From Flavobacteriales bacterium (GTDB lineage Bacteria; Bacteroidota; Bacteroidia; Flavobacteriales_F; PHOS-HE28), in the NCBI GenBank assembly GCA_019638085.1, contig JAHBUL010000011.1, positions 62,001 through 126,000 of the forward strand: a stretch of 64,000 nt of DNA, given 5' to 3'. The position numbers and the translations under genes were made by a program. The notes under the pieces were generated by a model. It had not been told where the DNA came from. It ran no database searches and saw nothing but the letters and a program-made list of their open reading frames with translations. How positions within the stretch are numbered: the first letter of the stretch is position 1; each line of letters starts with the position of its first letter. Shown here in pieces: positions 14,641-44,248 of the stretch.

Positions 14641-16467
14641 TCACATTTGCTCCGGCACTTCGATGCCGAGACACCACATGGATTTCTTCACGGCTGAAGC
14701 TACCGCAGCGCTAAACACCAAGCGGAAATTGAGTTTCCCCGCATCTTCCTCCTTCAGTATCGGGACTGTTTGATAGAAGCTGTTATAGCTCTTCACAAGG
14801 TCGTAGGCATGATTGGCGAGCGAAGAGGGATCAAGCCTTGCTGCGGCTTCGTGCAGCACCGCAGGAAACTGATGGAGAAGCTTGATCACGGTGCGTTCCT
14901 CTGGGAGCAGTTGATAGTTGTCCGTTGTCAGTTGTCCGGCTGCCGATGCCTTCTCGCCTGACAGCTGAGAACCAGCACCTGACAACTCCGCCTTGCGAAG
15001 CAAGCTGCGGATCCTCGCATAGGTGTACTGGATGAACGGCCCGGTGTGTCCTTGCAGATCAATGCTGGCCTTGGGGTCGAATAGCATCCGCTTTTTCGGG
15101 TCCACCTTCAGCAGGTAATACTTCAAGGCGGCGAGGCCGATCTGCTCATAGAGGGCGGACTTCTCCTCCTCCGAAAAATCATCGAGCTTGCTCAACTCCT
15201 CCCCGGCCGATCGGGCTTCCTGCACCACCTCCTCCATCAGCTCGTCGGCATCCACCACAGTGCCTTCGCGACTTTTCATCTTGCCCGTGGGCAGGTCCAC
15301 CATGCCGTAACTGAGGTGGTACAGGCCATCCGCCCATGCATACCCGAGCTTTTTCAGGATCAGGAATAGCACCTTGAAGTGGTAGTCTTGTTCGTTGCCC
15401 ACAGTGTAGATCAAGCGCTTCAGGTCCGGGAATTCCTCGAAGCGCTTTGTGGCGGTACCGATGTCCTGCGTCATGTAGAGACTGGTGCCGTCACCGCGCA
15501 TCAGCACCTTTTCATCGAGGCCTTCTGGCGTATTGTCCACCCACACACTGCCGTCGTCCTTCTTGTAGAACACGCCCCTCTCAAGGCCGTCCGTTACATC
15601 CTTCTTACCAAGTACGTACGTCTCGCTTTCGTAATAGACCTTGTCGAAGGCAACGCCCATGCGGGCATATGTGGCATTGAAGCCGTCATAGACCCAATGG
15701 TTCATCTTCGCCCACAACTCGCGCACCTCGGGATCGTTGGCTTCCCACTGACGCAGCATTGCCTGCGCTGCCATCATGATCGGTGCCTGCTTTTCGGCCT
15801 CCTCCTCCTTCATTCCAGCAGCGATCTGCTCCGCCACTTCGGCCTTGAATGCTTTGTCGAAGGCGACGTAATATTTACCGACCAACTTGTCCCCTTTCAG
15901 ACCACTGCTTTCCGGTGTTTCCCCCTTACCGAACTGCTGCCAGGCCACCATGCTCTTGCAGATGTGGATGCCGCGGTCGTTGATGATCTGTACGCGCACC
16001 ACCTCGTTGCCGACAGCTTCCAGGATCCGGCTTACCGAATGGCCGAGGAAGTTGTTCCGAAGGTGGCCCAAGTGCAAGGGCTTATTGGTGTTCGGAGAAG
16101 AGTATTCCACCATAACCTGGTCCCCGGTGGAAGCGAATTGCAGGATATCAACTTCTGCGGCCTCCCGCAAAAAGCCGTGCCAGTAGCTATCCGCGATCAC
16201 TAAATTGAGAAAACCCTTCACCACATTGAAGCGCTCCACAACCTCCACATTTGCTTGCAGGTGCTCTCCGATCGCCGTGGCGGTCTGCTCGGGCCCTTTC
16301 CCACTGACCTTCAGGAAAGGGAATACATTGATCGTGACATCCCCCTCGAATTCCGGACGGGTGGGCTGGAATGCAATGGCCTTATGTTCCAGTGTGTGCT
16401 GGAAGAGCTCTTGGAAGGCGTTCTGTAACGCAGGTTGCAACTGTGCTTGGAGGCGGTCTTGGAACAT
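14641..16467 (-). CDS. argS: Arginyl-tRNA synthetase with an extra internal segment
   Basis: Charges tRNA-Arg. The class I signatures are present: HLGHLRN (residues 132-138, HIGH-type) and GKMKSREG (KMSKS-type). The N-terminal additional domain and the C-terminal anticodon-binding domain (YDLVKSYNSFYQ) are recognisable. The 608-residue length includes about 26 extra residues, E494-Q519, between IRSLLRKA and LLPEERTVIKLL. Their DNA (14911-14988) resembles the dispersed GTTGTCAGTTGTC repeat family seen elsewhere here. The segment stays in frame in what is expected to be an essential gene. It follows the CtlX-like gene by 17 bases. Confidence 0.95.
   Translation of the reverse strand: MFQDRLQAQLQPALQNAFQELFQHTLEHKAIAFQPTRPEFEGDVTINVFPFLKVSGKGPEQTATAIGEHLQANVEVVERFNVVKGFLNLVIADSYWHGFLREAAEVDILQFASTGDQVMVEYSSPNTNKPLHLGHLRNNFLGHSVSRILEAVGNEVVRVQIINDRGIHICKSMVAWQQFGKGETPESSGLKGDKLVGKYYVAFDKAFKAEVAEQIAAGMKEEEAEKQAPIMMAAQAMLRQWEANDPEVRELWAKMNHWVYDGFNATYARMGVAFDKVYYESETYVLGKKDVTDGLERGVFYKKDDGSVWVDNTPEGLDEKVLMRGDGTSLYMTQDIGTATKRFEEFPDLKRLIYTVGNEQDYHFKVLFLILKKLGYAWADGLYHLSYGMVDLPTGKMKSREGTVVDADELMEEVVQEARSAGEELSKLDDFSEEEKSALYEQIGLAALKYYLLKVDPKKRMLFDPKASIDLQGHTGPFIQYTYARIRSLLRKAELSGAGSQLSGEKASAAGQLTTDNYQLLPEERTVIKLLHQFPAVLHEAAARLDPSSLANHAYDLVKSYNSFYQTVPILKEEDAGKLNFRLVFSAAVASAVKKSMWCLGIEVPEQM
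14911..14988 (-). repeat. Repeat-derived in-frame insert in argS
   Basis: On the plus strand the segment begins GTTGATAGTTGTCCGTTGTC and ends CACCTGACAACTC, the same paired inverted motifs as the intergenic elements at 42.2 and 44.1 kb but with a shorter core. It encodes a low-complexity Ser/Gly/Gln/Thr stretch absent from the usual ArgS domain pattern. That it is an insertion is inferred from the family pattern without an alignment. Confidence 0.65.
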
Positions 16468-42189: not shown

Positions 42190-42348
42190 TAGTTGTCGGT
42201 TGTCGGTTGTCAGGTCCGGGAATAAGTTCAGTGCTGACCCGCTACTGTGGTCGCTTGCTTGGTTTCAGCCATGCGAGCAGGCCATTCGGAATGGAGGCCA
42301 AAGACCGCACCATCAGGCCACCAAGCACACCTGACAACGGACAGCCCC
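42190..42348. repeat. Paired inverted-repeat element, copy A
   Basis: The left end GTTGTCGGTTGTCAGGTCCG and right end CACCTGACAACGGACAG are inverted copies separated by about 110 bases. The same ends recur at 44.1-44.2 kb. Family size and mobility are unknown. Confidence 0.7.
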
Positions 42349-42465: not shown

Positions 42466-42535
42466 ATACCATTTCGCAATAGAATATCATCCGATCTACT
42501 TGCTCTTTGGACGACCTTCTATTGCGAAGTGGTAT
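42466..42535. repeat. Palindrome 1 of a REP-like pair
   Basis: ATACCATTTCGCAATAGAA pairs with TTCTATTGCGAAGTGGTAT at 18 of 19 positions, spaced by 32 bases. Confidence 0.7.
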
Positions 42536-42548
42536 TACTTCGGTCGTT

Positions 42549-42592
42549 CCTCCCTCGCAATGACGATACTCCGAGCGTCATTGTGAGGGAGG
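42549..42592. repeat. Palindrome 2, GTCATTG-type repeat
   Basis: CCTCCCTCGCAATGACG pairs with CGTCATTGTGAGGGAGG at 16 of 17 positions around 10 bases. The arm matches a repeat family (CGTCATTGCGAGG) I know as dispersed in many Bacteroidota genomes. Confidence 0.65.
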
Positions 42593-42884
42593 AAGCGGTG
42601 TCGATATTGCTTAGCATAATGGCATTGCATGAGCGTCAGCAGAGGCAGGGCCCTGTGCTTCGGCTACGCTTTTTTGTCATACGGAGAGTTCAGACCACCC
42701 GATGCTTAGCACGGCAAATAGCCCAGGATCCGCGAAGACCTTTGTTGCGGCCAAAGTAATTCCTCATCGAATGGAGAGCATGCCGAGGTGCAGGACAGCG
42801 GGATAACGCCGGCCGGAGCTGGTTCCACCATTACCGTATCCATGCTACAACAGCTCAAGTACTGAGGGAACGTGTACCGCCGGA

Positions 42885-43538: not shown

Positions 43539-43786
43539 GATAGGCTTTGATTTTGAACAAGGTTAGGTAATAAACGGGTAGCGTGGGCAAGATCGCTGTC
43601 GCGCTCAACACACCACGCATCGTAGCCGAACTTCCAGCACGAACAAGATCAACTTTTTTCAAGACCTCAGCTAGCGCACGCGTATCGCGAGTGCGGATCC
43701 CCCTCCCGCTACTGCGCTTGCGTTCCTGATACAGCCATGCCGAGGCTTTTCGGAAGGCAATAATCGGAGGAGCTAGCCACGAAGTG

Positions 43787-43820
43787 CACCTGACAACGGA
43801 CAACTAAAACCTGACAACTA
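43787..43820. repeat. Partial inverted-repeat element, copy C
   Basis: CACCTGACAACGGACAACT followed by CCTGACAACTAG matches the right end of copies A and B. No left end is visible within about 250 bases. It lies at the 3' side of the pterin dehydratase gene. Confidence 0.65.
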
Positions 43821-43822
43821 GA

Positions 43823-44053
43823 TCAAGCGATCCCATCGATCGTCTTCGCCAGCTTCCTGTCCTTATCGGTGACCTTGTTCCCTGCATCATGGCTGCATAG
43901 CTTGATGTCCACGGTGTTGTACACGTTGGTCCATTCGGGGTGATGGTCCATCTTTTCCGCCGCCAAGGCCACGCGGGTCATAAAGGCGAAGGCTTCGCTG
44001 AAGTCCTTGAACTTGAAGCTGCGCTGCAGTTTGTTGTTCTCTTCTTTCCACAT
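43823..44053 (-). CDS. 4a-hydroxytetrahydrobiopterin dehydratase
   Basis: A 76-residue pterin-4a-carbinolamine dehydratase that recycles oxidised tetrahydrobiopterin. The active-site His pair is in EKMDHHPEW (H37, H38), with [18 protein letters not shown] carrying the third His (H55). The sequence is slightly short compared with the usual 90-100 residues. No aromatic amino acid hydroxylase is in the window. The gene is enclosed by inverted copies of the GTTGTCAGTTGTC repeat. Confidence 0.9.
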
Positions 44054-44056
44054 TTC

Positions 44057-44248
44057 TCAGTTGTCAGTTGTTCCGACATGCGTCGGAAGTTGTCGGTTGT
44101 CAGGTCCGGAAATCACCTCAGCAGTTGAGGCAGATCCGTGTGCTCAATAGCTCTGACGCTTTGGTGTTGCTGTTTGTTCAGTTGAGCGATACAAGCGCGG
44201 ACCGGCGCCTCAGGTGCGGTCACCCTGACAACTGACAGCTGACAACTA
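44057..44248. repeat. Paired inverted-repeat element, copy B
   Basis: The left part has CTCAGTTGTCAGTTGTTC, an 18-base hairpin (TTCCGAC/GTCGGAA at 44071-44088) and GTTGTCGGTTGTCAGGTCCG. The right end is CCCTGACAACTGACAGCTG followed by ACAACT. The enclosed DNA differs from copy A, so only the ends are shared. Confidence 0.7.

Follow-up and report, generated by a model that had tools for sequence, protein, structure and literature searches.

Palindromic repeats that lie in frame within core genes are best known from Rickettsia, which has a reduced intracellular genome. The Rickettsia palindromic elements (RPEs) are dispersed repeats of roughly 150 bp; many unrelated metabolic genes contain them in frame and are not destroyed by them, and each element encodes a conserved peptide (PMC10969869). 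A second group, the TAACTGA heptamer repeats, has been described from Beggiatoaceae, cyanobacteria and a few Bacteroidetes (MacGregor, 2015; PMC4679880). These are direct repeats, apart from a single indirect set in the main genome that was studied; they lie mostly upstream of start codons, and the coding copies are mostly at protein ends (PMC4679880).

Here we analyzed repeat DNA within the arginine--tRNA ligase gene (argS) of an uncultured Flavobacteriales bacterium (genome G000), based on a 64,000-nucleotide stretch of DNA (“the window”), the whole genome and related genomes. The original prediction likened this repeat to the RPEs, and the resemblance is fair as to behavior (in-frame copies in unrelated genes), not as to membership. 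Compared by description, both are palindromic and dispersed, and the repeat reported here is in frame in nine unrelated genes of G000. In contrast to the RPEs, the host belongs to the Bacteroidota (Flavobacteriales), each arm is a tandem array of heptads with a free base, the spacer is not conserved between copies, most arrays (89/104) are not inside genes and, in sister species, these loops contain other units.

The TAACTGA repeats are similar in being tandem heptamers with a unit one base apart (GTTATCA there versus GTTGTCN here), mostly intergenic, with one stop-rich orientation and some copies in ORFs (LSVISYQ there, LSVVSSQ here). The repeats in this study, however, form inverted pairs with a spacer and are found inside conserved domains of core proteins. 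The TAACTGA unit was absent from the top eight period-7 units of G000. As in MITE and REP sequences, the copies are short and numerous and have inverted ends; unlike in these, no target duplication was found, nor a parent transposon in a search that covered Y1_Tnp only, no RAYT lies beside the copies, and both arms and spacers vary. A full-text search of open papers yielded no account of heptad-armed inverted pairs, nor of different units occupying the same loops.

In these Flavobacteriales, with genomes of ~4 Mb, nine genes of one genome carry the repeat and several unrelated units occupy the same loops across species. They provide a natural series in which to ask how repeat DNA turns into protein sequence, which loops accept it and how fast it decays. 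The series also bears on what makes a tandem 7-base unit in inverted pairs.

A paired heptad element within argS

The host gene argS (14641-16467, minus strand) encodes a protein of 608 amino acids, identified by its match to NCBIfam TIGR00456 (386 bits, cut-off 262), a Pfam DALR_1 domain at residues 479-608 and homologues in all 39 genomes searched. Within it, positions 14910-14986 comprise an element of 77 bases with inverted arms, (GTTGTCN)4 and (NGACAAC)4, in exact 7-base register. The left arm (14910-14936, plus strand) reads GTTGATA GTTGTCC GTTGTCA GTTGTC, four heptads in register, and corresponds to GQLTTDNYQL on the coding strand. The right arm (14960-14986, minus strand) reads GACAGCT GAGAACC AGCACCT GACAAC, again four heptads in register, the third of which is decayed. 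Between the arms is a 23-base spacer (14937-14959), CGGCTGCCGATGCCTTCTCGCCT, with NGGC at its start and GCCT at its end, as in other copies. Its first bases, GGCTGCCGA, directly follow GTTGTC arms at 10 of their 23 occurrences in 824 kb. On the coding strand the whole element translates to ELSGAGSQLSGEKASAAGQLTTDNYQL.

Scored against (GTTGTCN)4/(NGACAAC)4, the argS element reaches 41 of 48, the highest paired-arm score in the window. Codon-shuffled versions of argS did not exceed 31, and none of the 400 trials reached 41. Repeat DNA is thus present at the place in argS where it had been predicted.

An AlphaFold model of ArgS has a mean pLDDT of 88. One helix ends at residue 495 and the next starts at residue 522, with the element in between, so that it separates two helices of the DALR anticodon-binding domain, in agreement with the original prediction. 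The pLDDT falls below 50 at residues 503-512, and the rest of ArgS is confident. The insert is predicted from this model to be disordered.

We also considered a structured RNA. The argS element has only a weak folding advantage over shuffled sequences (z -1.63) and no Rfam match, and this candidate was rejected. Across the window, tRNA was the only Rfam family matched and the repeat had no match.

Copies in the window and across the genome

The sequence GTTGTCNGTTGTC occurs 17 times in the window when up to two mismatches are allowed, versus 5.2 ± 2.4 expected. Two intergenic paired copies score lower than the argS element, as does every intergenic copy in the window. The first (42192-42345, paired-arm score 38) has arms GTTGTCGGTTGTCGGTTGTC and GACAACGGACAGC and a 121-base spacer beginning with AGGTCCGG. 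The second (44046-44246, score 35) has an additional left arm nested at 44089 and its right arm, GACAACTGACAGCTGACAAC, at 44227-44246. An intergenic half copy, consisting of a right arm (CACCTGACAACGGACAACTAAAACCTG), is located at 43787-43813 on the minus strand, and the sequence just before it (43752-43802) is similar to that at 42293-42343. The region 42466-42610 of the window contains another inverted repeat (ATACCATTTCGCAATAGA...), followed by TCATTGTGAGGGAGGAAGC, which is similar to the CATTGCGAGC repeat, translated as GHCEQSEA within the RsgA of G066.

In the whole G000 genome (4.0 Mb, 36 contigs) we identified 124 exact GTTGTCNGTTGTC sites, whereas the reversed control had none. Positional statistics were obtained from 824 kb of stretches picked around the sites. 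These include 104 arrays of 2 to 6 heptads, many of them inverted pairs with spacers of 6-340 bases; the pairs listed span about 60-380 bases. Among period-7 tandem units the GTTGTCN family is dominant, with AACTGAC at 57 places, AACGGAC at 22 and AACCGAC at 17, and the next unit at 7. Although 86.5% of the sequence codes, 89 of the 104 arrays are not fully within genes, and 15 are entirely within genes.

The inner boundary of the arrays is conserved, as the base following the arm's next base is G at 99 of the 104 arrays and is followed by another G at 84. The spacers of the array pairs, on the other hand, fall into several mutually unrelated groups. The outer ends are mixed, with TA or CA before GTTGTC and inconsistent pairing, and no strain pair is close enough for base-level empty sites; TA target-site duplication was rejected on account of these flanks. 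At seven places the TAG stop of a neighboring gene is completed by the first G of the element (L088:6923, L093:9985, L096:9571, L099:9048, L103:3160, L107:1641 and L107:8342).

We searched for an autonomous partner. The genome has two RAYT-like Y1_Tnp genes with an NHVH or NHAH motif (L114 and L115; G000:C1:301272 and G000:C34:180580), and no heptads lie beside either in 3.2-kb loci. RAYT was therefore rejected as the mobilizer.

In-frame copies in other genes

A genome search for other coding copies, as had been suggested, identified at least eight G000 genes besides argS with in-frame copies (nine in all, one with an uncertain start). In RsgA the insert occupies residues 229-268, between the TTT motif and the DTPG of the GTPase, and in MiaB residues 438-478 of the TRAM domain. 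Domain matches break off at both inserts: RsgA_GTPase ends at 230 and TRAM at 435. Arrays are also in frame in DnaE, the allantoinase AllB, a ROK sugar kinase, a PMT_2 glycosyltransferase and a flavoprotein of the geranylgeranyl-reductase family. In a KdsC-like HAD phosphatase the array is at the N-terminus, and it is this gene whose start codon is uncertain. Gene models were based on a codon-usage score and family searches, with protein families above curated cut-offs. The inserts were read as protein from the DNA frames, and their presence in the mature proteins is predicted.

The first arm is read as LSVVSSQLS and the second as QLTTDN(G/R)QLTTDN. These arm peptides recur, and no spacer peptide is common to the copies. 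LSVVSSQLS or QLTTDNGQLTTDN inside a conserved protein should accordingly be annotated as repeat DNA, not as a domain. At the DNA level, the non-heptad spacer of the RsgA insert is 88% identical to intergenic copies over a 26-base stretch (E 1e-4).

Outside genes, the free base N is T in 60% of cases (110/183). Nevertheless, the NGA codons of the coding arms are GGA, CGA or (once) GAA, and never TGA. The restriction of copies inside genes to those with an open frame is thus the mark of a filter.

A DnaE-like polymerase (G000:C1:467856-471437; L079:7857-11438) contains several repeat-derived linkers and a long Pro/Ser-rich segment, SPPSPPSPP.

The same loops in related genomes

Orthologue alignments comprised up to 11 same-genus genomes, and the close public relatives are metagenome assemblies. 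The ArgS segment between the two helices is 34 residues long in G000 and 19-30 residues in 18 genomes of the genus that have few copies of the repeat, giving a net gain of ~10 residues (4-15). The 26 extra residues originally proposed were therefore an overestimate. The original prediction had named an ordinary variable loop as a refuting alternative, and this is half correct: the loop is variable in every relative, but repeat DNA has entered it. Remains of the heptads in the ArgS loop are clear in G000, G013, G066, G065 and G005 and weaker in several other genomes. The QL/QLL end adjoining the second helix recurs.

On a tree of ArgS without the loop, the heptad label changes about four times. 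Well-supported branches force at least three of these changes, which may be gains or losses on what is a quick tree with many weak forks. A single ancestral argS insertion without losses was rejected because of these forced changes; several arrivals, or an arrival combined with losses, are more likely, and repeat DNA probably entered the ArgS loop more than once. Genomes with at least 12 heptad sites have ArgS loops that are more heptad-like (Mann-Whitney p = 0.0009) and longer (p = 0.0004), in a comparison uncorrected for ancestry, and supported branches offer just three independent pairs for relating heptad count to the loop.

A paired GTTGTCN element immediately precedes the start codon of argS in G005, G066 and G040 (L046, L061 and L065). 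By coordinates, a heptad site also lies upstream of argS in G010, G058 and G060, which have 2-5 sites per genome.

In MiaB, the turn that carries the element is 6-7 residues long in G002, G017 and G008 and equally short in G066 and G016, and the element is about 25-43 residues in G000, G013, G004, G044 and G040. The RsgA site has 9-10 residues in G016, G017 and G010, versus >40 in G000. From these alignments, the short MiaB and RsgA sites appear to be empty or near-empty.

When seven other genes of G000 and G013 were compared, sequence identity was 17-79% for the inserts and 85-96% for the remainder of the proteins. The ArgS loops of the two genomes also differ strongly. As the inserts diverge faster than their host proteins, they appear to be tolerated and have no sign of conservation. 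The ROK kinase of G013 (L154) has a nested insertion: 11 further residues (PHRRQGAMAGE) interrupt its heptad peptide.

Other repeat units at the same loops

The ArgS loop carries CACATGNN octads in G016 and G040, GATCAGAN-like units in G010 and G022, and five AAGTATC heptads in G036, a member of another family. In MiaB of G020 the arms are GTTCGTN. RsgA has inverted pairs with GTTCGTA arms in G002 and with GGCGAGT arms (GCGAGTN unit) in G008. Scanning the reading frames of DnaE, RsgA and MiaB without a preset unit revealed further heptads and octads, and the DnaE orthologue of G044 has about ten arrays of the octad CGCGAAGN. Different species thus have different heptad- or octad-armed repeats at the same places, and these protein loops appear to be repeated landing sites.

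Three families were searched for in whole genomes, and each is dispersed in some species and nearly absent from others. CACATGNGCACATG has 7 to 42 sites in G016, G040, G059, G066, G061 and G008, and none in G000, G013 and G044. GCGAGTNGCGAGT has 69, 51 and 44 sites in G065, G066 and G008, respectively, and none in most other genomes. GTTCGTNGTTCGT has 23 sites in G020, 12-13 in G004, G018 and G048, six in G002 and one in G000. For the three families tested, we infer that the loops mostly carry the unit that their genome has amplified. Exceptions are G040, which has 75 GTTGTCN sites yet CACATGNN in its ArgS loop, and G017, with a CACATG-like loop and one exact site. AAGTATC was rejected as a large dispersed family in G036, where it occurs at three places only (argS and two others).

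The MiaB insert of G020 (L174) combines a spacer like that of G013 with arms of GTTCGTN instead of GTTGTCN (0/500 shuffles; one case). It may represent an in-place exchange of arm units.

Origin and persistence of the repeats

We consider it probable that argS holds a complete copy of a dispersed palindromic element, which lodged in a disordered loop, is spreading or expanding in the genome, and is tolerated by the protein. The unit (GTTGTCN)n - spacer - (NGACAAC)n would have lodged in an already variable loop between the anticodon-binding helices, where its length and free base N would keep the frame open and allow ArgS to fold. The repeat would be selfish or self-expanding DNA, and the protein would tolerate the linker without acquiring a new function. 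Spread could occur as non-autonomous DNA mobilized in trans by a transposase, or through recombination among copies. Copies might land anywhere, but within genes survival would require a disordered loop and an open frame. We infer that copies spread as a unit, given the copy number, the conserved inner boundary and the spacer common to the RsgA insert and intergenic copies, and selection on the protein would then act as a filter only. Points against a mobile unit are that no autonomous partner was found in the Y1_Tnp search, that the outer ends gave no definable target duplication, and that the spacers, of 6-340 bases and in several unrelated groups, differ from those of a classical MITE family.

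Some features could instead reflect local growth, in which replication slippage and quasi-palindromic template switching add tandem units to variable linkers, with no mobile unit. This would fit arrays of 2 to 6 heptads, differing spacers, the lack of target duplication and of a transposase link, the presence of different units at one site in different species, and the argS of G036, whose five AAGTATC heptads have just two other places in the genome. However, 124 copies of one exact heptad pair versus none in the control need copying between loci, the inner boundary is conserved (99/104 and 84/104 G), and distant copies have spacer sequence in common, in one case a coding and an intergenic copy. 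Slippage in place accounts for changes in array length but not for copy number, and as a full explanation we regard local growth as unlikely.

A quite improbable alternative is that the arms are written rather than copied between elements: at a DNA break, a putative enzyme would extend each of the two 3′ ends by a short templated unit, a heptad with one loose position, in a telomerase-like manner, before joining. If true, this would produce X_n - filler - rc(X)_n, in which arm length varies, the fillers are unrelated and there is no target duplication. The unit would differ by lineage, and the same tolerant loops would be hit repeatedly. It would also explain the inverted layout and the mixture of spacer and arms in MiaB of G020.

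The original prediction described the repeat as domesticated. A selected role in ArgS, for example as a longer linker touching the tRNA or a partner, would be consistent with the persistence of heptad-rich loops in G000, G013, G066, G065 and G005 and with the recurring QL/QLL end. Such a role is very improbable, however, as the inserts diverge fast, the argS insert is predicted to be disordered, sister species have unrelated repeats or short loops in an ArgS they retain, and like inserts are found in unrelated proteins. An assembly or gene-model artifact can practically be dismissed: the close relatives are metagenome-assembled genomes and the gene models come from a codon-usage score, but related inserts occupy the same place in separate assemblies (argS in G013 and G066; MiaB in G013, G004 and G044), all frames are open and the families are above curated cut-offs.

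One locus of G000 has a tandem arrangement. At L107:13333-13780, units of 92 bases are repeated in tandem, each with a left heptad arm and most with the spacer GGCTGCCGATGGCC, and right arms are located at the end.
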